Shown here: positions 10,966 through 30,396 of the stretch, piece by piece | Position numbering within the stretch: the first letter of the stretch is position 1 | Layout: the number at the start of each line of letters is the position of its first letter | DNA from: Parcubacteria group bacterium GW2011_GWC2_48_17 | GTDB lineage: Bacteria; Patescibacteriota; Minisyncoccia; Phycocordibacterales; UBA10002 | Length of the DNA: 35,922 bases | Direction of reading: 5' to 3' | Assembly: GCA_001003605.1 (NCBI GenBank) | Contig: LCPL01000008.1 | Coordinates: 1-35,922, forward strand | The notes under the pieces: model-generated | Database searches by the model: none | The model's input: the letters and a program-made list of their open reading frames with translations, nothing else | Told to the model about the DNA's origin: nothing | Made by a program: the position numbers and the translations under genes

Positions 10966-11139
10966 CACAAAGCACAGTACACAAAAATCCAAACAATGAA
11001 GACAAACTACCCAAAACACAGTTCACAAAAACCCAAAAAGGAAGTCGATAGGGTCAATGTCGACACCTGTGGACGGGATGAGTTTGTGTTTTGTATAGTT
11101 TGTGCTTTGTTTGGATTTTTGTGCAGTTTGTGCTTTGTG
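10966..11139. repeat. Word-like inverted repeat (CACAAAGCACA family)
   Basis: The left arm (10966-10994) begins CACAAAGCACAGTACACAAA; the right arm (11109-11139) is its near-perfect inverse and ends CAGTTTGTGCTTTGTG. The interior repeats related words (CCCAAAACACAGTTCACAAA). The left arm closely resembles the left arm of the repeat at 23146, so these are copies of one family 12 kb apart. Confidence 0.85.
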
Positions 11140-13423: not shown

Positions 13424-13513
13424 GAAGGTAGCTAGTAGCAAGTAGATAGTAGAAAGAATCAAAACCACCATCTTCTACCTTCTACCTTCTACCTTCTACC
13501 TTCTACCTGCTAA
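13424..13513. repeat. Word-like inverted repeat (AGGTAGA family)
   Basis: The left arm reads AGAAGGTAGCTAGTAGCAAG and onward; the right arm has five tandem copies of CTTCTAC followed by CTGCTA. The two sides are inverted relative to each other and share the 7-base word. The right end abuts the EamA-like promoter. Confidence 0.8.
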
Positions 13514-16048: not shown

Positions 16049-17080
16049 ATGCGAATACGCGAATTTGTTTCTCTCAAAAAAATGACGACACTTAAGATTG
16101 GCGGTGTTGCTCGCTATTTTTGTGCCGTGGAAAGGGCGGAGGAACTCTCGGAGGCGCTCGCCTTCGCTCGCGAAAAGAGAATTAACCTTGTCGTGTTTGG
16201 CGGTGGCTCCAATGTGCTCATCGCAGATGAAGATATTGACGCGCTCATTATCAAAATAGATATTAAGGGAATTGGCTGGAAAGAGGATAGTGAAGATGTT
16301 TTAGTAGTTGCCGGCGCCGGAGAGAGTTGGGATGGATTGGTTGCGAAAGCGGTCCGGCGCGAACTCTGGGGTGTTGAAAATCTTTCGGGCATTCCCGGTA
16401 CGGTGGGCGCCGCTCCCATCCAAAACATAGGAGCGTATGGCACGGAGATAAAAGAAACGCTTGCATGGGTGGAAGTCTTTGACACAAGGAGTGGAAAGTT
16501 CCGAACACTGTCAAACAAAGAGTGCAAGTTCGGCTACCGCGACAGCATTTTCAAGCGCCCGAAGGGAAAATCGCTTATCATAACGCGCGTGGCGCTGTGG
16601 CTCAAAAAGAGCGGAACACCCAATCTTGAATATAAAGATTTGAAAGAGAGATTTAGGATTTATGATTTACGATTTAAGAAAAAGAGACTGACTCCGTTGG
16701 ATATACGGAAAACAGTGCTTGAGATTAGAAGCAGAAAATTTCCGGATTTGAGAACACACGGCACTGCCGGCTCGTTTTTCAAAAACCCCATCATTTCACA
16801 GGGGAAATTCAACAAACTCAAGAAGAAATTCCCGGACCTCCCCGGCTTCCCAATCTTTACAAGGTTCAAGATTCCCCTTGCCTGGATTCTTGATAACGTG
16901 TGCGGTCTCAAAGGATTTTGCAAAGGCAACGTAACTTTGTTTGAACGCCAGCCAATCGTCATCGTACAAAATGGTAAGGCGTCCGCGGAAGAAATTAAAT
17001 CGTTTGCTAAAGAGATTTCTGATAAAGTGAAAGCGAAAACCGACATCGACATCGAGTGGGAAATACAGCAGATATGGTAG
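16049..17080 (+). CDS. murB: UDP-N-acetylenolpyruvoylglucosamine reductase
   Basis: This FAD-dependent NADPH reductase makes UDP-N-acetylmuramic acid for peptidoglycan in the cytoplasm. Seen are the substrate/FAD region LKIGGVARYF, VFGGGSNVLIAD, the ENLSGIPGTVGAAPIQNIGAYGTEI core, FGYRDSIF, then GTAGSFFKNP with the catalytic serine, and a C-terminal VQNGKASAEEI. Length is 343 residues. Between LEYKDLKE and LTPLDIRKTVLEIRSRKFPDL lies an extra basic segment (RFRIYDLRFKKK, about residues 199-212) encoded by repeated GATTTA words, the inverse of the repeat found before obgE. The gene is followed by a perfect 17-bp hairpin. Confidence 0.92.
   Translation: MRIREFVSLKKMTTLKIGGVARYFCAVERAEELSEALAFAREKRINLVVFGGGSNVLIADEDIDALIIKIDIKGIGWKEDSEDVLVVAGAGESWDGLVAKAVRRELWGVENLSGIPGTVGAAPIQNIGAYGTEIKETLAWVEVFDTRSGKFRTLSNKECKFGYRDSIFKRPKGKSLIITRVALWLKKSGTPNLEYKDLKERFRIYDLRFKKKRLTPLDIRKTVLEIRSRKFPDLRTHGTAGSFFKNPIISQGKFNKLKKKFPDLPGFPIFTRFKIPLAWILDNVCGLKGFCKGNVTLFERQPIVIVQNGKASAEEIKSFAKEISDKVKAKTDIDIEWEIQQIW
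16649..16678. repeat. Word repeat inserted in frame in murB
   Basis: AGATTTAGGATTTATGATTTACGATTTAAG consists of four variants of GATTTA(T/C)G. Its reverse complement shares AATCATAAATC with the intergenic repeat at 28503-28536. It encodes the extra RFRIYDLRFK segment in a loop position of MurB. Confidence 0.7.
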
Positions 17081-17268: not shown

Positions 17269-17460
17269 ATGAATAAGGTCGAACATTTCTATTGCACGCT
17301 AATAAGAGAAAAGAAAGACGGCAGATACGATATTCTCGATTCCGATTGCACGGATTCTTTTCCTAAAAAGATAATGGCAAAGAAAAAGCGAAAGGCAGCG
17401 AAGAAGCGCAAAACGGCAAAGAAGGGGAAAAAGCGCAAAGGCGCTCGCCGCCGCCGATAA
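17269..17460 (+). CDS. Small lysine/arginine-rich basic protein
   Basis: The 63-residue protein has a short N-terminal part (MNKVEHFYCTLIREKKDGRYDILD) and a strongly basic C-terminal tail beginning MAKKKRKAAKKRKTAKKGKK, like histone H1-tail or Hc1-type proteins. The tail alone (ATG at 17374, 28 residues) could be the whole gene. It probably binds nucleic acid through charge. A strong terminator starts immediately after the stop, which supports a real transcript. A TATGCT at 17246 is a possible but poorly spaced -10. The family is unknown. Confidence 0.5.
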   Translation: MNKVEHFYCTLIREKKDGRYDILDSDCTDSFPKKIMAKKKRKAAKKRKTAKKGKKRKGARRRR

Positions 17461-17510
17461 CACAAAACTCCTCTGGCAAAATGTCAGAGGAGTTTTGTGT
17501 TGGTCTTTCT
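17461..17510 (+). terminator. Intrinsic terminator after the basic protein
   Basis: CACAAAACTCCTCTG (17461-17475) pairs perfectly with CAGAGGAGTTTTGTG (17485-17499), a 15-bp stem with a 9-base loop, followed by a T-rich stretch (TTGGTCTTTCT). The A-rich left arm and T-rich right arm could act in both directions. Confidence 0.8.
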
Positions 17511-17540
17511 ACTAACTACATACTACTAACTACTCACTAT
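17507..17540. repeat. Word repeat (ACTAACTAC family)
   Basis: TTCTACTAACTACATACTACTAACTACTCACT repeats the word CTAACTA/ATACTA several times. It lies between the terminator and the secA -10 box, similar in style to the CTTCTAC repeat at 13424. Confidence 0.5.
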
Positions 17541-17559: not shown

Positions 17560-20205
17560 ATGTTCGACCGTATCAAGAAACTTTTCGGCGACGATTCGGA
17601 GGCCAAACTAAAGCCGTTATACGCGAATGTCCAAAAGATAAATAGTCTGGAGGCGGGCCTTTTGGGGCTTTCGGGGAACGCGCTTAAGGAGAAAACCACA
17701 GAATTAAAGGCCCGTGTGCAAAAAGGCGAGTCGCTTGACGACATTCTTCCCGAAGCGTTCGCGCTCGTACGTGAAGCAGCCCGCCGTACTTTAGGCGAAA
17801 GGCATTTTGACGTCCAACTTCTCGGCGGTCATGTACTCCATAACCACGGCATCGCCGAGATGCGCACCGGTGAAGGAAAGACGCTCGTCGCAACGCTTCC
17901 TTCATATTTGAACGCACTCGCGGGAAAAGGCGTGCATATCGTTACCGTCAACGATTACCTCTCAAGAAGAGATGCGGTGTGGATGGGGCAGATACACCAC
18001 CTGCTCGGACTCTCGGTGGGGGTTATCAATCACGATTCGTCATTCATATACGACCCTGCTCACAGTTCTGGAAAGGGAGCAGGTGGAATTTCCAATTTCC
18101 AATTTCCAATTTCCAAACAAGGCGAAAATCTCAAATCAGAAAATCCAAACAAAGATAAAGATGACCAATTGGATAAAACAAGAGATGAACTTGGGAGTTT
18201 CCGGGTAGTGCATGAATTCTTGAAACCATGCACACGGCGCGAGGCTTACGCCGCGGACATCACTTATGGCACCAACAATGAATTCGGCTTTGATTATCTT
18301 CGCGACAACCTTGAATATTCTCCGGAGCGCCTGCGCCAGCGCGATTTCAACTACGCCATCGTGGACGAAGTTGATTCTATTCTCATAGACGAGGCGCGAA
18401 CGCCACTCATTATTTCCGCGCCGACGGGGGATTCCGGAGACCTCTACGCCAGGTTCGCGCAAATTGTTCGAGGGTTAGAAAGAGACACGGATTTTACCGT
18501 GGATGAAAAACAGAAAGCTATTCAACTCACTCCAGCGGGTATCGAGAAGGCGGAAAAAGCGCTTGGCGTGGATAATCTTTATACGGAGAAGGGCATTAAA
18601 TACGTACATCACCTTGAGACCGCCGTTCGCGCCAAAGCGCTCTTTCATCTTGATAAGGAATATGTCGTACGAAACGGTGAAATAGTGATTGTAGACGAAT
18701 TCACCGGCCGCATGATGCCAGGACGCCGTTGGAGCGAGGGGTTGCACCAGGCGATTGAAGCGAAGGAAGGTGTGAAAGTCCAGAAAGAATCCCGCACCTT
18801 CGCGTCCATCACATTCCAAAATTATTTCCGAATGTATAAGAAACTCGCAGGGATGACTGGCACGGCCAAGACAAGCTCAGAAGAGTTTTACAAAGTGTAT
18901 GGCTTGGATGTGGTTTCTATTCCGACAAATAAGCCCATCGCGAGAGCCGACAGAAACGACCAGATATTCCAAACGGAGAAAGGGAAGTTCAAGGCTATCG
19001 CGAAAAAGGTCGCGGAACTCAATCAAAGAGAACAACCGGTGCTTATCGGCACGGTTTCAATTGAAAAGAACGAAGTGCTTTCAGAGTATCTCCGCTCGGT
19101 GGGCGTGCCGCATGAGGTTCTAAACGCCAAAAACCACGAGCGCGAAGGGGAAATAATTGCCCAAGCGGGACGGAAAGGAGCAGTGACGGTTGCGACCAAC
19201 ATGGCAGGTCGCGGCGTGGACATCAAACTCGGAGGCAATCCGCAAGTAAAGGAGGATGCGGAAGCGGTAAAATCGGTGGGAGGGCTCTTTGTTCTCGGCA
19301 CTGAGCGGCACGAAGCGCGGCGCATTGATAATCAGCTCCGCGGGCGCTCGGGCAGGCAAGGAGACCCTGGAGAAACGCAGTTTTTCGTATCAATGGAGGA
19401 CACGCTCATGCGCGTGTTTGCCGCCGACACTATCAAGAACATGATGGGGCGTTTTGGCATACCAGAAGATGAGCCGATAGAAAACCGCATCATCACTCGT
19501 TCGCTCGAAACCGCGCAGACAAAGATTGAGGGGTTCAATTTTGACGCAAGGAAACACGTGCTTGAATATGACAATGTGCTAAACCATCAGCGAAGCGTCG
19601 TGTACGAACGCCGAAGAAATATACTCGTTGGTGGCGGGGTGGCGGCTGAGGACTACCTCACACTTATCGGGGCGGGGAATGAGGCATTCCAAAAATCGGT
19701 GGAAGAAAAGAAGAAACAGCTCGGTGACGACTTCTATCCCGCCATTCAACGTCTCATTCTCCAAACAATTGACTTATTTTGGGTTGAGCATCTGGAGGTA
19801 ATGGATTACCTTCGCGGCTCGGTGAACCTTCGCGCCTATGGCCAGCGCGACCCGCTTGTCGAATATAAAAAGGAGGGACTTCAGATGTTCAAAGAAATGG
19901 AGGAAAATATCGTCGCGCAAGTGATGAATATTCTCCCGCGTGTCGGGGGACCAACTCCAGCGCCAGAGCAAATTAAATTACAGGAAGTGCATGAACAAGC
20001 CCAGCTCATCGGCTCGGGCGATGAAGAATCGGACGCGAAGCATCGGGGAAATGTCTCACGGTCCAATGTCCCCACCAACCCCGATGGGTCAAAACTCGGC
20101 AGAAACGACCCCTGTTACTGCGGAGTGGTGAACACAAATACAGGAAAAGTTTATAAGTATAAACAGTGCGGACTGATAAACGCCCCATATCATCGCAGAG
20201 CGTAG
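17560..20205 (+). CDS. secA: Preprotein translocase ATPase SecA
   Basis: The motor that drives proteins through SecYEG. The 881-residue protein shows Walker A MRTGEGKT near residue 101, VNDYLSRRDA, TYGTNNEFGFDYLRDN, Walker B AIVDEVDSILIDEARTPLI near residue 267, the TFASITFQNYFRMYKKLAGMTGTA region, VATNMAGRGVDI, and the arginine fingers in QLRGRSGRQGDPG. Two oddities: residues about 176-206 are an extra hydrophilic segment encoded by AATTTCC and CCAAACAA words, and the helical wing between VVYERRR and LQTIDLFWVEHLEVMDYLR is only about 60 residues, far shorter than in E. coli. The C-terminal zinc-binding motif is atypical (NDPCYCG, then KYKQCG), and an out-of-frame SEC-C-like remnant follows the stop. 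Confidence 0.96.
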   Translation: MFDRIKKLFGDDSEAKLKPLYANVQKINSLEAGLLGLSGNALKEKTTELKARVQKGESLDDILPEAFALVREAARRTLGERHFDVQLLGGHVLHNHGIAEMRTGEGKTLVATLPSYLNALAGKGVHIVTVNDYLSRRDAVWMGQIHHLLGLSVGVINHDSSFIYDPAHSSGKGAGGISNFQFPISKQGENLKSENPNKDKDDQLDKTRDELGSFRVVHEFLKPCTRREAYAADITYGTNNEFGFDYLRDNLEYSPERLRQRDFNYAIVDEVDSILIDEARTPLIISAPTGDSGDLYARFAQIVRGLERDTDFTVDEKQKAIQLTPAGIEKAEKALGVDNLYTEKGIKYVHHLETAVRAKALFHLDKEYVVRNGEIVIVDEFTGRMMPGRRWSEGLHQAIEAKEGVKVQKESRTFASITFQNYFRMYKKLAGMTGTAKTSSEEFYKVYGLDVVSIPTNKPIARADRNDQIFQTEKGKFKAIAKKVAELNQREQPVLIGTVSIEKNEVLSEYLRSVGVPHEVLNAKNHEREGEIIAQAGRKGAVTVATNMAGRGVDIKLGGNPQVKEDAEAVKSVGGLFVLGTERHEARRIDNQLRGRSGRQGDPGETQFFVSMEDTLMRVFAADTIKNMMGRFGIPEDEPIENRIITRSLETAQTKIEGFNFDARKHVLEYDNVLNHQRSVVYERRRNILVGGGVAAEDYLTLIGAGNEAFQKSVEEKKKQLGDDFYPAIQRLILQTIDLFWVEHLEVMDYLRGSVNLRAYGQRDPLVEYKKEGLQMFKEMEENIVAQVMNILPRVGGPTPAPEQIKLQEVHEQAQLIGSGDEESDAKHRGNVSRSNVPTNPDGSKLGRNDPCYCGVVNTNTGKVYKYKQCGLINAPYHRRA
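18087..18176. repeat. Word repeat inserted in frame in secA
   Basis: Four tandem AATTTCC units (18087-18114) are followed by CCAAACAAGG, TCAAATCAG and AATCCAAACAAAG words, then CCAATTGGA. AATTTCCAAT also occurs in the intergenic repeat at 4071-4195 and ATCCAAACAA in that at 10966. The insertion keeps the secA frame and encodes an Asn/Lys/Asp-rich loop. Confidence 0.75.
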
Positions 20206-20600: not shown

Positions 20601-20643
20601 ATAGAAAACAAATTTTAGGTTTTAGGTTGGGCCTACGTCTAAG

Positions 20644-20675
20644 TCGCTTCACTTTACCCAAGTAAAGTGAAGCGA
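20644..20675 (+). terminator. Perfect 14-bp hairpin, possible terminator
   Basis: TCGCTTCACTTTAC pairs perfectly with GTAAAGTGAAGCGA around a CCAA loop. The downstream bases are ATAAGATAAG, not a T-tract, so termination is plausible but unproven. It separates the small membrane protein from the Maf gene. A short TTTTAGG word repeat precedes it (20612-20630). Confidence 0.5.
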
Positions 20676-20705
20676 ATAAGATAAGGGTGTGAGGAATGCG
20701 CTTGT

Positions 20706-21296
20706 ATGAAAATTATTTTAGGTTCACAATCTGAAAATCGGAAACAGGTGCTAAAAGATGCCGGGTACGCATTTGATGTAATGGTCTCAAACATAGATGA
20801 GAAGGCAATTCGGCATGAAGATTTTTATGAACTTCCGCTTCGTCTTTCTCGCGCGAAGGCCGCCGCGCTCCTCACCAAAATAAAAGAACCAGCGATTCTC
20901 ATCACGGCGGACCAAGTTATAGTATGGAATGGCGAACTTCGGGAAAAACCGCGAACTCTCGCTGAAGCTAGACGATATCTTGAAACATTTAGCAGAAGCG
21001 AATATCCAGCGGAGTGTGTTAACGGTATTACAGTTACGAATACGGGAAGCGGCAAGTCTATTACAGAGCGTGAAGTTTCAAAGGTATTTTTCTCAAAGAT
21101 TCCGCAGGAGAACATTGAGGCATTCCTCGCGAGCGGCGGAGCGTTCAAATACGCCGGGGGGTTCACGCCACAGTCTCCGCTCATCAGGCCGTACCTTCGA
21201 ATTGACGGAACCTTTGAAAGCGTGCTTGGCCTTCCTTTGTCCGTAGTGGAGAAATGTATTAAAGAGTTGTCCGAACAGAGTTTATCTCAACGCTAA
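20706..21296 (+). CDS. maf: Maf-family nucleotide pyrophosphatase
   Basis: The 196-residue protein opens ILGSQSENRKQVL, the Maf family start, and has LITADQVIVW (the acidic residue of the active site), REKPRTLAEARRYLETFS (family LxKP region) and the C-terminal LRIDGTFESVLGLPLSVV, the family GxxxxxVxGLPL motif. Maf proteins hydrolyse non-canonical or canonical nucleoside triphosphates to monophosphates and are linked to cell division and house-cleaning. Variations such as RIDGTFES for the usual GD..N suggest a divergent subfamily. It is followed after 32 bases of word repeat by a NUDIX gene, another house-cleaning type. Confidence 0.85.
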   Translation: MKIILGSQSENRKQVLKDAGYAFDVMVSNIDEKAIRHEDFYELPLRLSRAKAAALLTKIKEPAILITADQVIVWNGELREKPRTLAEARRYLETFSRSEYPAECVNGITVTNTGSGKSITEREVSKVFFSKIPQENIEAFLASGGAFKYAGGFTPQSPLIRPYLRIDGTFESVLGLPLSVVEKCIKELSEQSLSQR

Positions 21297-21324
21297 AAGC
21301 TAGAAGCTAACAGCTATAAGCTAT
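21294..21324. repeat. Word repeat (AGCTAA family) containing a -10 box
   Basis: GCTAAAAGCTAGAAGCTAACAGCTATAAGCTA has five variants of AGCTAxx. It fills the gap between maf and the NUDIX gene, starts at the maf stop, and contains the NUDIX -10 candidate. Confidence 0.75.
21315..21320 (+). promoter_or_regulatory. -10 box of the NUDIX gene inside a repeat
   Basis: TATAAG ends 8 bases before the ATG at 21329. It is made by one variant of the AGCTATA word in the repeat. Confidence 0.4.
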
Positions 21325-21328
21325 CCCC

Positions 21329-21796
21329 ATGCCCCACATCCACGAAAAAATAGATTTTACCGTTGAAGTCTTCATTGTGCATAAAGACAAGGTACTTCTT
21401 CGCATGCATGACAAGTACAAAAAATGGATGAGCGTCGGAGGGCATATTGAACTTCACGAAGACCCGGTAGAGGCGGCGCATCGGGAGGTGAAAGAGGAGG
21501 TTGGGCTCGACATTGAGCTTGTGGGGAATCCAAGGATTTTTGAATCCGTTGACCACGGAAGGGAACTCATACCGCCAGTCGCCCTCAATCGCCACGCTAC
21601 AAATCAACCCGGCCATGAACACATTACATTCGTCTATTTCGCCCGAGCGCAAAGCGATAAAACCGCGGTAACCTATGCGGATGACGCGAGCGAGGAATGC
21701 CGCTGGTGTGCCAAAGAGGAAGTAGAGCAGATGAACCTGTGGCTGAACGTGCGGCACTATGCACTCGCTGCGCTCAATCAACTAAAAGAAGCATGA
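21329..21796 (+). CDS. NUDIX hydrolase
   Basis: The 155-residue protein contains a complete Nudix box, GHIELHEDPVEAAHREVKEEVGLDI (Gx5Ex7REVxEExGL), at about residues 38-60, preceded by WMSVGGH. It hydrolyses a nucleoside diphosphate linked to another group, with the glutamates of REVKEEVG binding magnesium. The substrate is not predictable; ADP-ribose or an oxidised nucleotide would be usual. The C-terminal part (ECRWCAKEEVEQMNLWLN) is typical of mutT-like small NUDIX proteins. It follows maf and may be co-transcribed in part. Confidence 0.9.
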   Translation: MPHIHEKIDFTVEVFIVHKDKVLLRMHDKYKKWMSVGGHIELHEDPVEAAHREVKEEVGLDIELVGNPRIFESVDHGRELIPPVALNRHATNQPGHEHITFVYFARAQSDKTAVTYADDASEECRWCAKEEVEQMNLWLNVRHYALAALNQLKEA

Positions 21797-21799
21797 TGA

Positions 21800-21856
21800 A
21801 TCTATTCTGATGTTCCCTGCCTCGCCGGCAGGCGGGTTGAGAATATCAGAATAGAT
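21800..21856. repeat. Nested palindromic element
   Basis: Outer arms ATCTATTCTGAT (21800-21811) and ATCAGAATAGAT (21845-21856) are perfect inverted copies. Nested inside is CCTGCC-TCGCC-GGCAGG. The inner hairpin closely resembles the one inserted in the MYG1 gene at 27552-27571. It starts 3 bases after the NUDIX stop and could also act as a terminator. Confidence 0.8.
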
Positions 21857-21901
21857 GCGGCATGCTGTAATATTTCGGCGTGGAAAACAGTTTAATAATG
21901 G

Positions 21902-23145: not shown

Positions 23146-23259
23146 CACAAAACACAGTACACAAAAACCAAACAAAGCACAAAACAACAAACAAGCCAAA
23201 TGTTTGTGCTTTTCTTTAGTTTGTGATTTTGTTTGGTTTTTTGTGAAGTTTGTGTTTTG
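23146..23259. repeat. Word-like inverted repeat (CACAAAACACA family)
   Basis: The left arm (23146-23173) reads CACAAAACACAGTACACAAA and onward; the right arm (23231-23259) is its near-perfect inverse ending GTTTGTGTTTTG. Additional words GCACAAAAC and GTTTGTGCTTTT form an inner pair. It splits the ABC ATPase and permease genes. The left arm matches that at 10966 in all but a few bases. Confidence 0.85.
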
Positions 23260-25300: not shown

Positions 25301-25702
25301 ATGAGATTTATTAAATTTTTCGACAAATTAGAAGATGAAGTCAGGGGAAAGCTCTCAAGAGCTCCCATTATCTACGGCATTATAGGCGGTACGGCCATCG
25401 TCATGTTTTGGCGAGGTGTTTGGCACACGGCAGATATGCTTGAGCAAAGCGGCGGCATCTTAGGGGTTGTATTTGGCGCTCCGATATCAACGATAATAAG
25501 CGCCATAATCCTTCTCCTCACTGGACTCTTCGTTTCTTTCTTTATAGGAGACCGCATCATTCTTTCCGGCCTTACGCACGAGAAGAAGGTAGAAGAAAAG
25601 ACCGAAAGCGAAGTTCGGGCCGAAGGGGCGCTTCTTTTGAATATGTCCGATAAGCTGAGGCATATTGAAAGAGAAATAGAAGCGATAAAGAGCAAAAAGT
25701 AG
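25301..25702 (+). CDS. Small membrane protein with C-terminal coiled coil
   Basis: The 133-residue protein has an amphipathic N terminus (RFIKFFDKLEDEVRGKLSRAP), two membrane segments (IIYGIIGGTAIVMFWRGVWH and IISAIILLLTGLFVSFFIG) and a charged helical tail (EKKVEEKTESEVRAEGALLLNMSDKLRHIEREIEAIKSKK) likely to form a coiled coil. I recall similar hypothetical proteins from CPR genomes but no name. It probably shares a transcript with the bactofilin-like gene. The track's TTG start (25295) is replaced by the ATG two codons later. Confidence 0.7.
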   Translation: MRFIKFFDKLEDEVRGKLSRAPIIYGIIGGTAIVMFWRGVWHTADMLEQSGGILGVVFGAPISTIISAIILLLTGLFVSFFIGDRIILSGLTHEKKVEEKTESEVRAEGALLLNMSDKLRHIEREIEAIKSKK

Positions 25703-25708
25703 CCAAAC

Positions 25709-25727
25709 ACCAATAACCAAGAAACAA
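25709..25727. repeat. Left inverted arm flanking the four-helix-bundle gene
   Basis: ACCAATAACCAAGAAACAA is matched in inverse by the right arm at 26147-26165 with one mismatch in 19 bases. Related words (CTCCAAACAATG, AGATTCCAAACAGG) run into the first codons of the gene. Confidence 0.85.
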
Positions 25728-25737
25728 GCTCCAAACA

Positions 25738-26115
25738 ATGCTCAATATTCAAGATTCCAAACAGGAGGGCGGACACTCTTTTGACTTGGAAAAACGGACT
25801 ACAGATTTTGCGAAAGCAGTTATCAAGTTGTGCATGAATCTTCCTCGCAATCCGATGAATGATCGCTTAGTCGGGCAGGTAGTGGGCTCTTCCGGTTCTA
25901 TTGGTGCGAATTACAGAGAAGCGAACGACGCGCTGGGTACTAAGGATTTTGTACACAAACTGAAGATTTCTCGAAGGGAAACAAAAGAAACAATTCATTG
26001 GTTAGAACTGATTGCCGTTGCAAATTCAGATGTAGAGAAAGAGATTTCGTTTCTTATTAAAGAATCTGTAGAATTGCGCAACATATTATCCTCAATTATC
26101 AATAAGTGTAAATAA
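25738..26115 (+). CDS. Four-helix-bundle protein (23S rRNA IVS family)
   Basis: The 125-residue protein matches the four-helix-bundle family first found as the ORF in 23S rRNA intervening sequences and related to the retroelement accessory protein Avd. The core FDLEKRTTDFAKAVIKLC, then SSGSIGANYREANDALGTKDFVHKLKISRRETKETIHWLELI, is diagnostic. The first 15 residues (MLNIQDSKQEGGHS) are encoded partly by repeat words. The gene sits inside a pair of inverted repeat arms, as the IVS ORFs do, yet here it is in an intergenic site. Its biochemical role is unknown; nucleic-acid binding is assumed from the family. Confidence 0.9.
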   Translation: MLNIQDSKQEGGHSFDLEKRTTDFAKAVIKLCMNLPRNPMNDRLVGQVVGSSGSIGANYREANDALGTKDFVHKLKISRRETKETIHWLELIAVANSDVEKEISFLIKESVELRNILSSIINKCK

Positions 26116-26146
26116 TTTCTTTTGACTCTTGAGATTTGTTTGGTTA

Positions 26147-26165
26147 TTGTATCTTGGTTATTGGT
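26147..26165. repeat. Right inverted arm flanking the four-helix-bundle gene
   Basis: TTGTATCTTGGTTATTGGT is the inverse of the left arm at 25709-25727 with one mismatch. It is preceded by more words (GAGATTTGTTTGGTTA) and leads directly into the -10 of the AI-2E gene. Confidence 0.85.
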
Positions 26166-26172
26166 TATTCTC

Positions 26173-26178
26173 TATATT
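26173..26178 (+). promoter_or_regulatory. -10 box of the AI-2E family gene (leaderless)
   Basis: TATATT ends 5 bases before the ATG at 26184, with no Shine-Dalgarno. Confidence 0.5.
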
Positions 26179-26183
26179 TTCCC

Positions 26184-27218
26184 ATGCCCGCATCTCGCAA
26201 AGTTGAACTAAGCTTTTTCTTTCTTCTCGTGGCGGCGGCCACCGCGGTGTCTTTTTTCATATTCAAGCCGTATTTCGGCGCGCTGTTTGTCGCTGTGGTG
26301 TTCGCGATTGTTTTTCGGCCCCTTTTTGAGACAGTCCACAAAAGAGTCAAAAGGGAAGGATTGGCCTCGTTCTTGACACTGGCTTTTTTATTTTTCGTGG
26401 TTCTTATTCCGGCTACGCTCTTTGGATTCTTCATTTTTGATGACGCGCGGAATTTATACGAGTCCGCCGGAAACGGCGCTTCAATCCTCTCTCGCTTGGA
26501 TGAGGCCATCCTCCCGTTCAAAGAGTACATACAAAAGATAATTCCCGGCTTTGAAATTAATATCTCCGAGTACGTGGATGCCGCCCTGTCGTTTTTCTTA
26601 AGCAATTTTGGCGGAGTCTTTACGCGGGCTATCGGCATTGTGTTCCAAACCTTTATCATGCTTTTAGCTTTGTTTTATCTTTTTCGCGACGGAGCGAAAT
26701 TCAGGTCTTATATCGTCACGCTTTCACCTCTTACCAATGAGTATGACGAGCGAATTCTAAAACGCATTGAATCCGCCATTTCTTCGGTCGTGAAAGGGAA
26801 ACTATTAATCATACTCTTACAAGGCATTCTCGCTTCTGTCGGTTTTTTCATCTTCGGCGTGCCGAGTCCAGTGCTCTGGGGCGCGATTACGGCCATAGCC
26901 GCGCTCATTCCCGCGGTTGGAGTCGCCATCGTATTTATACCTGCTGTCATATTTCTTTTCATAACGGGCGGTATGTTCTCGGCACTTGGTCTTTTGATAT
27001 TCGGCATGATTATAGGGTCCATAGACAATCTCCTTGGTCCAGTGCTCTTTGAGAAAGGCCTCCTGATGCATCCGCTCTTCATTCTCCTCTCGGTGCTTGG
27101 CGGTATCGTGTTTTTCGGCCCCGTCGGTTTCCTTGCCGGTCCGGTCGCCCTCTCGCTCCTTTTGGCGCTTTTGGATATCTATCCGCTGCTGTTTCAAAAC
27201 AACGATAATAACCAATAA
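26184..27218 (+). CDS. AI-2E family (PerM-like) transporter
   Basis: The 344-residue membrane protein has about seven to eight hydrophobic segments in the AI-2E/PerM layout: two N-terminal helices, a soluble loop (EAILPFKEYIQKIIPGFEINISEYV), then VVKGKLLIILLQGILASVGFFIFGVPSPVLWGAITAIAALIPAVG, a strongly conserved family stretch, and the C-terminal GPVGFLAGPVALSLLLALLDIY. Members have been linked to signal or ion export, but function varies. The track start 26136 lies in the repeat; ATG 26184 is favoured by the -10. The last residues (NNDNNQ) are encoded by the left arm of the next repeat. Confidence 0.85.
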   Translation: MPASRKVELSFFFLLVAAATAVSFFIFKPYFGALFVAVVFAIVFRPLFETVHKRVKREGLASFLTLAFLFFVVLIPATLFGFFIFDDARNLYESAGNGASILSRLDEAILPFKEYIQKIIPGFEINISEYVDAALSFFLSNFGGVFTRAIGIVFQTFIMLLALFYLFRDGAKFRSYIVTLSPLTNEYDERILKRIESAISSVVKGKLLIILLQGILASVGFFIFGVPSPVLWGAITAIAALIPAVGVAIVFIPAVIFLFITGGMFSALGLLIFGMIIGSIDNLLGPVLFEKGLLMHPLFILLSVLGGIVFFGPVGFLAGPVALSLLLALLDIYPLLFQNNDNNQ

Positions 27219-27298
27219 CCAAGATACAATAACCAAAGGACGAGAATTTTCTTGCTCTGCGCTTTGTTTGGTTATTGTTTCTTGTATCTTGGTTATTG
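27207..27298. repeat. Inverted repeat without an ORF, related to the IVS-gene arms
   Basis: Left arm AACCAATAACCAAGATACAA (from 27210) and right arm TTGTATCTTGGTTATTG (27282-27298) enclose about 50 bases with no coding capacity. Both arms resemble the arms around the four-helix-bundle gene (ACCAATAACCAAG core shared). The left arm overlaps the end of the AI-2E gene. Confidence 0.85.
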
Positions 27299-29514: not shown

Positions 29515-29532
29515 ATCCCCACACGTCAACCC

Positions 29533-29553
29533 GTTCGACATCGGATGTCGGAC
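29533..29553. repeat. REP-like palindrome, left of the RAYT gene
   Basis: CGACATC-G-GATGTCG is the core of a 21-base near-perfect palindrome. The reverse complement of the right copy at 30322-30342 matches it with one difference, so the two are inverted relative to each other. Confidence 0.85.
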
Positions 29554-29563
29554 AAAGATGTGG

Positions 29564-29569
29564 TATGAT
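29564..29569 (+). promoter_or_regulatory. -10 box of the RAYT gene (leaderless)
   Basis: TATGAT ends 7 bases before the ATG at 29577, with no Shine-Dalgarno. Confidence 0.45.
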
Positions 29570-29576
29570 GTTTCGT

Positions 29577-30305
29577 ATGGCGTACCGACGTACCGCATTC
29601 ACCCCAGGTGAGCATTATCATCTCTACAACAGGGGTAACAACAAACAAGAAGTATTTCACAACGAAGGTGACTATATTCGCTTCTTGTTTTACCTGCTGT
29701 ACTATCAATCACCACTTACATTTTCCAGACTGTCCGAGAAAGTCTCCAATTTTAAGCGAAGTGAGGAGTTTGGCACCCCCGTACACGTACACAACAAAAT
29801 TATTTCTAAACGGACAGTTGCGCTAGTAGGGTTTTGTCTCATGCCGAATCACTTTCACCTTGTCGTGCAGGAAACTGAAGGCGGAGGCATTTCTAAATAT
29901 ATGCAGCGCGTGTTAAATGGATATTCAAAGTACGCTAATAAGAAATATCCCGAAAGACACATCGGTCACGTTTTTCAGGGTCCTTTCAAAGCCGTTCACC
30001 AAAAGACGAATGAACAGCTTTTGTACCTTTCCGCGTATGTACACAGGAATCCAAGAGAACTTACCGCGTGGACAGACAAGGAAAGGCAATATCCGTGGTC
30101 AAGTTTCCGAGACCTTTCAGGTCAGAACCGATGGGATACACTACTCTTACACGCCGTCATTTCGAAGCAGTTTAAGGGAGGCAAGGACTATGAAAAATTT
30201 GTTAACACCAGTAGTGCAAAAAGTGAATACAGAAGACTTTTGCTTGATAACGAGATTTTTCTTGAAGCGGGACTGGAGCAGGAGGAAGGCGAGGTTATTG
30301 TGTAA
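29577..30305 (+). CDS. REP-associated tyrosine transposase (RAYT, Y1_Tnp)
   Basis: The 242-residue protein is a single-domain HUH/Y1 nuclease of the IS200-like RAYT branch. It begins GEHYHLYNRGNNKQEVF, contains FCLMPNHFHLVVQ (the HxH metal motif) in mid-protein and GHVFQGPFKAVH, then YLSAYVHRNPRE, the family C-terminal motif; the catalytic tyrosine is expected near YMQRVLNGYSKYANKKY. RAYTs cut and join single-stranded REP palindromes. The gene lies between two inverted REP-like palindromes, the expected arrangement. The start is 29577, four codons inside the track start. Confidence 0.92.
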   Translation: MAYRRTAFTPGEHYHLYNRGNNKQEVFHNEGDYIRFLFYLLYYQSPLTFSRLSEKVSNFKRSEEFGTPVHVHNKIISKRTVALVGFCLMPNHFHLVVQETEGGGISKYMQRVLNGYSKYANKKYPERHIGHVFQGPFKAVHQKTNEQLLYLSAYVHRNPRELTAWTDKERQYPWSSFRDLSGQNRWDTLLLHAVISKQFKGGKDYEKFVNTSSAKSEYRRLLLDNEIFLEAGLEQEEGEVIV

Positions 30306-30321
30306 ATTTAACGCACTTTCT

Positions 30322-30342
30322 GTCCGACATCCGATGTCGGAC
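30322..30342. repeat. REP-like palindrome, right of the RAYT gene
   Basis: A 21-base palindrome with a 10-bp stem and a single central base (core CGACATC-C-GATGTCG). A shorter relative, ATGTCGGACAT, follows immediately. Confidence 0.85.
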
Positions 30343-30396
30343 ACGATGTCGGACATGGGGGCAAAAGGGTATTTATATACGGCAAAAAAAAGAGGG

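Follow-up and report, generated by a model that had tools for sequence, protein, structure and literature searches.

We identify, at positions 25703-26180 on the forward strand of a 35,922-nucleotide stretch from Parcubacteria group bacterium GW2011_GWC2_48_17 (the window), what is probably one copy of a small mobile element of about 420-520 bp, in which a four-helix-bundle (IVP, or S23) gene sits within inverted arms made of heptanucleotide words and from which ORF-less arrays derive. Our sequence comparisons demonstrate that gene and arms form one unit, which has moved between genomic contexts and is missing at orthologous sites. The link between heptamer repeats and this gene is what the analysis adds to what is known, and the element may explain a class of bacterial repeats, the heptanucleotide repeats, whose origin is unexplained.

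The window element and its relatives across bacteria

The element occupies the entire gap between a gene for a 135-aa membrane protein (stop at 25702) and an AI-2E permease gene (ATG at 26184), outside 23S rRNA. Its limits are set by similarity to an element on contig C29 of a same-genus genome (G002), which ends near both of them, and by the same junction being empty in another (G012). The left arm, of CAA-type 7-nt words, spans 25709-25752 on the forward strand and the right arm 26122-26165 on the reverse strand. Their 19-nt cores, ACCAATAACCAAGAAACAA (25709-25727) and the reverse complement of 26147-26165 (ACCAATAACCAAGATACAA), are identical at 18 of 19 positions, and the extended match of 44 columns reaches a local alignment score of 48, against a median of 18 for mismatched arm pairs among the ten IVP copies of this genome. 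In an RNA fold the arms pair as a closing stem around the ORF, with z only -2.3 over the whole 484 nt. The gene itself (25738-26115, forward strand, 125 aa) matches TIGR02436 (6e-22) and PF05635 (1.4e-15), and its protein exceeds the curated cut-offs of both profiles (77.9 vs 24 bits and 57.8 vs 33.8 bits, respectively). Its first codons are overlapped by the extended left arm, which passes the ATG at 25738. The initial annotation had described a four-helix-bundle ORF enclosed by 19-base arms with one mismatch, the arm words running into the first codons, and both parts of that description hold.

An AF2 model of the window protein (pLDDT 91.5) matches the four-helix-bundle fold of 2RLD (probability 1.00, TM 0.75-0.86) and 2GSC. 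The protein belongs to class B ('ERT..FA') and carries Q47, S54, N58, E61, and E84. Across 135 IVP proteins no substitution occurs at E61 or E84, and conservation reaches 99% at Q47, S54, and N58; these polar residues could be structural or catalytic. We know of no catalytic domain in the IVP protein, and a profile search returned no Y1 family match in it. The viral contigs scanned held no relatives of the window protein.

Ten TIGR02436 genes are present in the window's own genome (G000; a 1.03 Mb assembly, 989 of 1027 kb of which were analysed as regions), and 13 genomes of the same genus hold 0-10 each. The initial annotation had staked its reading beforehand on arms being commoner around such genes than elsewhere, and they are. 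With an inverted-arm score of at least 26 within 250 nt either side of the gene counted as a pass, arms are present at eight of the ten IVP genes of G000 compared with 3.9% of 827 other ORFs of at least 100 aa (odds ratio 99, p = 5.6e-10). Genus-wide they reach this score at 89% of 46 IVP genes; the rate for mismatched pairs of upstream and downstream flanks is 4.9%, and that for random positions 1.7%. Chance or AT-richness as the source of the arms is ruled out by these mismatched-pair, random-position, and gene controls.

A wider sample comprised 80 genome loci and 13 cyanobacterial plasmid loci; those from outside the genus are best hits to one class A query, mainly class A proteins, from species that are not independent. 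Across 12 further groups, ranging from cyanobacteria to Clostridia, 62-100% of IVP loci have arms, compared with 0-9% of control positions (about 2% in well-sampled groups, 0-9% in small ones). The share scoring at least 26 is 0.92 in cyanobacteria, 0.85 in CPR, 0.76 in Bacteroidota, 0.67 in Clostridia, and 0.62 in mixed others; every acidobacterial, alpha-, gamma-, and deltaproteobacterial, Campylobacter, and spirochaete locus passes, with few loci in each, as does the sole archaeal IVP locus with sufficient flank. This distribution rules out an oddity restricted to CPR, and the feature is not the local one that the initial annotation had taken it for. No IVP gene located in rRNA was present among the sampled loci, from which conserved rRNA k-mers were absent. 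The median element span is 458 nt. In every group the flank sequences show autocorrelation peaks at exactly 7, 14, and 21 nt, and DNA 1.1 kb from the IVP genes has none of these.

The arm words are specific to each locus, and their type and strand track the class of the protein. In class A ('WQ') elements 14.6% of sense-strand lag-7 trinucleotides are TAG or CAG; in class B ('ERT', which includes the window gene) 25.4% are TAA or CAA and 0.3% TAG or CAG. The 5' arm favours G in class A (G/(G+C) 0.79) and C in class B (0.27). This variation by locus and class rules out a single fixed terminal sequence of the IS kind. At protein identities of 50-65% the arm score between elements is 18.5, the null level, while that within elements is 37.5. 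Since the match between elements is lost while pairing within them persists, both arms are rewritten together. In one class B subgroup (G002:C30:56287 and 88259, G008:C23:3965, G012:C21:8073) the words (AATTATTCTAATTAACC) look 9-nt rather than 7-nt periodic, and word length may vary with the protein.

Movement of the unit and its ORF-less relatives

Where proteins are 68-92% identical, paired elements have both arms in common although their surroundings in the genome are unrelated. For the window copy and the element on C29 of G002, protein identity is 82%, the arms score 60 and 62, and the context is at the null level. The junction beside the AI-2E gene, occupied by the window element in G000 and empty in G012, is filled in other ways elsewhere: G002 has an IVP element there that is not the one of the window, G008 a hairpin that lacks an ORF and uses the words of G002, and G004 and G007 single arrays of words. 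Cyanobacterial plasmids provide the cleanest insertions. A 423-bp element on Trichormus plasmid C is missing in Nostoc linckia and others, where the flanks are 98% identical, and GTAAT stands at both of its sides and once in the empty site, a 5 bp duplication; the Scytonema copy of this element differs in length by 14 nt, or two words. At an element of Nostoc N6 pNPM1 ATTCTA (6 nt) is duplicated, and a 503-bp insertion in Nostoc ATCC 53789 shares 3 nt with the empty site. Across three Nostoc plasmids the junction at a TraM gene is found full, ORF-less, and empty. Duplication lengths are inconsistent over the four clean junctions, at 5, 6, 3, and 0-1 nt, the last belonging to an ORF-less insertion. 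Insertion is also visible against empty plasmid sites in C. brevissima, PCC 7003, N. edaphicum, Anabaena 90, and Nostoc C052, where diverged junctions hide any duplication; in the Calothrix PCC 7716 comparison the sequences are strongly diverged. Empty sites in relatives, which the initial annotation had suggested looking for, are found both at the G012 junction and on cyanobacterial plasmids.

The gene pairs cas6|cas4, cas10|cmr3, and nrdB|nrdA are split by IVP elements and uninterrupted in relatives. Elements in cas6|cas4 and cas10|cmr3 junctions lie at cyanobacterial plasmid loci L136 (2492-2860), L137 (2498-2857), and L219 (2495-2851). IVP genes have been listed beside CRISPR loci, with a 23S rRNA IVP named in a figure legend (PMC10910872). 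That such genes interrupt cas operons intact in near relatives points to passenger status, and IVP proteins reported as CRISPR-linked may be passengers.

Repeats of the same words also occur in the window without an ORF. At the next gene junction, a hairpin at 27207-27297 (arms 27207-27237 and 27267-27297, 87% complementary; fold z = -6.1) has a 31-nt identity to the reverse complement of the window element's right arm, in agreement with the earlier remark that the ORF-less repeats are of the same word kind. Two arrays match the arms of other resident elements: CTTCTAC x5.9 at 13472-13512 (G000:C1:37056, score 58) and a GCTAAAA-type array at 21292-21323 (G000:C1:43034, score 49). A further array, CTACTAA x4.4, lies at 17509-17539, and hairpins with inverted arms of CAAA-type words lie at 23163-23241 and 10973-11130. 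Within genes, AATTTCC x4.3 occupies 18087-18116 of a secA-like ORF (17560-20205) and GATTTAC 16650-16676 of a murB-like ORF (16049-17080); both are in frame and encode short repeated peptides (ISNFQFPIS, RIYDLRF).

Genome-wide, G000 contains 206 period-7 arrays per Mb, compared with 0-13 at lags of 5, 6, 8-11, and 13. Outside IVP elements there are 199, of which 66 fall within crude ORFs. Arms of the ten resident elements are matched (score at least 30) by 64% of these arrays, compared with 26% for ten-arm sets from sister genomes and 1.5% for shuffled arrays, and an inverted partner lies within 200 nt of roughly one in three (1.5% in the control). Array density tracks IVP copy number over ten genomes (rho 0.73, p 0.016), with zero-IVP genomes still holding about 25 arrays per Mb in samples of 80-120 kb. 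One sister genome, G001 (L056, L247-L250), has 150 period-7 arrays per Mb and one IVP gene whose arms they do not match, which suggests relics of lost elements or another source.

The plasmids supply a direct case. On pNPM1 an IVP gene is split by an exact insertion of 182 bp, a hairpin that has no ORF and is built from the same words (CAGAAGT, CAGAATT, CAGGAGT), while the ATCC 53789 homolog is intact, with near-identical sequence on either side of the insertion site. The inserted sequence (L278 780-962) has further palindromes nested in it (AATTAGTGG..CCACTAATT, CCGCTAAATC..GATTTAGCGG), a pattern that suggests nested insertions. The comparisons of genomes and plasmids demonstrate that ORF-less hairpins share sites with elements of the same words and have inserted elsewhere. 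The initial annotation's view of the short repeats as derivatives of the element is therefore sustained in part: shared words and sites, the 182-bp jump, and word sharing in G000 speak for it, but in five sister genomes the sharing of words with resident arms is not significant overall (p = 0.42; 57 arrays, small samples), G009 and G011 leaning the expected way and G002 not. Given this last result, derivation of the arrays rests mainly on G000 and the plasmid cases; parent elements may have been lost since their copies arose, or some arrays may stem from elsewhere.

Other palindromes in the window and its genome have a different character. A RAYT-like Y1_Tnp gene (29565-30305) lies in 31-nt inverted arms of its own (29524-29554 and 30321-30351, TGTCGGACATC-type), and a second Y1_Tnp copy is found on contig C21. 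The unit at 29524-30351 resembles a standard REP/RAYT unit, distinct from the heptamer elements, and the difference between the flanking palindromes rules out this RAYT as mover of the heptamer repeats. Strong short intergenic hairpins at 17459-17501, 20638-20681, and 21790-21866 lack clear 7-nt words and are possibly terminators or another palindrome family. At G000:C3 21362-22855 an ORF of about 500 aa lies in a very strong inverted repeat (score 181) that is not heptamer-like, probably an ordinary transposon.

A proposed mechanism and its competitors

We propose that a ring of IVP protein, a relative of the DGR Avd subunit, would recognise the class-specific word stem, in the transcript or in single-stranded DNA, and would pass it to an enzyme for integration or copying that is encoded outside the element. 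Arrays without an ORF would be non-autonomous copies, mobilised in trans or remaining after loss of the ORF, and would lengthen and shorten through 7-nt slippage. Mobilisation of ORF-less copies in trans is likely, and the IVP protein is a candidate for the trans-acting role, spreading or processing the repeats, that the initial annotation had suggested for it. A resident reverse transcriptase or Y1 transposase was considered as obligate partner and rejected, as the copy counts of neither track those of IVP. With neither obligatory by count, the activity may be borrowed from mixed sources, supplied by host repair or replication, or hidden within the four-helix bundle itself; functions borrowed from the host seem more probable than a partner dedicated to the element. 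As intermediates, RNA and DNA have roughly equal probability.

An RNA-mediated version of such movement would make the unit a retro-element, in which Avd-like IVP binds the stem RNA together with a reverse transcriptase borrowed from cell, phage, or plasmid, and the cDNA is integrated by target-primed or similar synthesis. We regard this as possible, if rather more apt to be wrong than right. The window protein is a weaker fold match to Avd and to the DGR reverse transcriptase complex (4DWL and 8UB7, the Bordetella phage DGR Avd subunit and its ribonucleoprotein; TM 0.70-0.74), and homology of PF05635 to Avd has already been published (PMC10053308). The word type is strand-fixed in the 5' arm, the RNA fold joins the arms in a closing stem, and target duplications are short, all of which are consistent with an RNA route. 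Against this, the weak z of that fold tells little in its favour, and RVT_1 counts do not follow IVP: G009, about 100% complete with six IVP genes, has none, while G003 and G010, with no IVP gene, have three and two.

The alternative in which DNA is the moving form, arms being extruded from single strands and moved by a resident HUH/RAYT transposase or through replication and repair errors (template switching), with IVP stabilising the hairpins, seems to us unlikely, though not greatly so. It accords with the arms being near-perfect inverted repeats that occur in either direction with respect to the genes beside them, with the co-evolution of the two arms of one copy, and with the presence of a RAYT-like gene in the same window. 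That gene, however, has its own, different palindromic arms, and Y1_Tnp counts do not track IVP (six IVP genes and no Y1_Tnp in G002; one Y1_Tnp each and no IVP gene in G003 and G010).

Heptamer arrays might instead be what moves, or else hot spots of recombination, with the IVP gene a mere passenger caught between two of them. The arrays do outnumber the genes (199 to 10), and one ORF-less array has moved alone. We nonetheless consider this improbable: only 3.9% of the 827 other genes are so bracketed, compared with 80% of IVP genes, the association of arms with IVP holds across bacterial groups, and the word type follows the class of the protein. A host or addiction function (RNA processing, or toxin-like) for a gene that lies near repeats for regulation and does not move would suit the selection suggested by five invariant or nearly invariant residues in 135 proteins, but the empty sites strongly disfavour it, and with copies in unrelated surroundings and a junction that sister species fill with different elements it is hardly credible.

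Returning to the mobile gene-and-arms unit, a broader formulation is quite conceivable, although we lean slightly against it. IVP elements may constitute a separate, bacteria-wide class of transposable element, whose sole gene encodes a 120-aa Avd-like bundle, possibly with its own catalytic site at the conserved Q47, S54, N58, E61, and E84, and whose termini are rewritable heptamers read according to class; they would then be the main source of heptanucleotide repeats, and the 23S rRNA intervening sequences (IVS) would be copies that landed in rRNA.

Comparison with known systems

The element joins two old puzzles, the origin and function of the 23S rRNA IVS and the origin of heptanucleotide repeats, and makes both testable in cyanobacteria. 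Cyanobacterial STRR and small dispersed repeats are reportedly the subject of Mazel 1990 and Elhai 2008. Heptanucleotide repeats are over-represented in bacteria, have received no detailed study, and have no known origin (PMC4692102, PMC4679880). Those described (STRR in cyanobacteria, TAACTGA in Beggiatoaceae, GGGNATC in Xanthomonas and Nostoc) share the 7-nt period of the arms; the cyanobacterial words GGGAACA, TAGGGAG, and GGGAAAA resemble IVP-element words, and the repeats are mostly intergenic and scattered (PMC4679880, PMC4692102). They are generally not found with mobile elements (PMC4692102). In the literature searched, outside which subscription journals largely fell, we found no paper linking an IVP gene to heptamer repeats.

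The 23S rRNA IVS of Leptospira, Coxiella, and Xanthomonas carry the same protein family (PF05635/TIGR02436), with the ORF within a terminal inverted-repeat stem. Excision by RNase III, which leaves the rRNA fragmented, is a further trait of the rRNA IVS. The Coxiella IVS, of 428 nt, has a terminal stem formed by 28 bp inverted repeats and an S23 ORF (PMC4990558), close in size to the 423 nt of the cleanest insertion described here. Decades after the discovery of IVS, what they do and where they come from were still called unclear, transposition being one of the early proposals (PMC4990558). Unlike these IVS, the elements reported here lie between protein genes, are multi-copy and dispersed, have class-specific heptamer arms, and have ORF-less derivatives. 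In outline, the free-living IVS-like element of the initial annotation is borne out, being of the same family and size, with its ORF in a terminal stem outside rRNA, and it recurs and moves.

REPIN and RAYT systems likewise pair short palindromes with a presumed single trans-acting gene, but RAYT is an HUH (Y1) transposase and REPs have a fixed tetranucleotide, whereas IVP has no Y1 domain and its words vary by locus. DGR Avd shares fold and homology with IVP, whose element has neither a template/variable repeat nor a reverse transcriptase. MITEs resemble the ORF-less copies as non-autonomous inverted-repeat elements with short target duplications; the difference is that no transposase-bearing parent is known here, and the parent-like element carries only the IVP gene.
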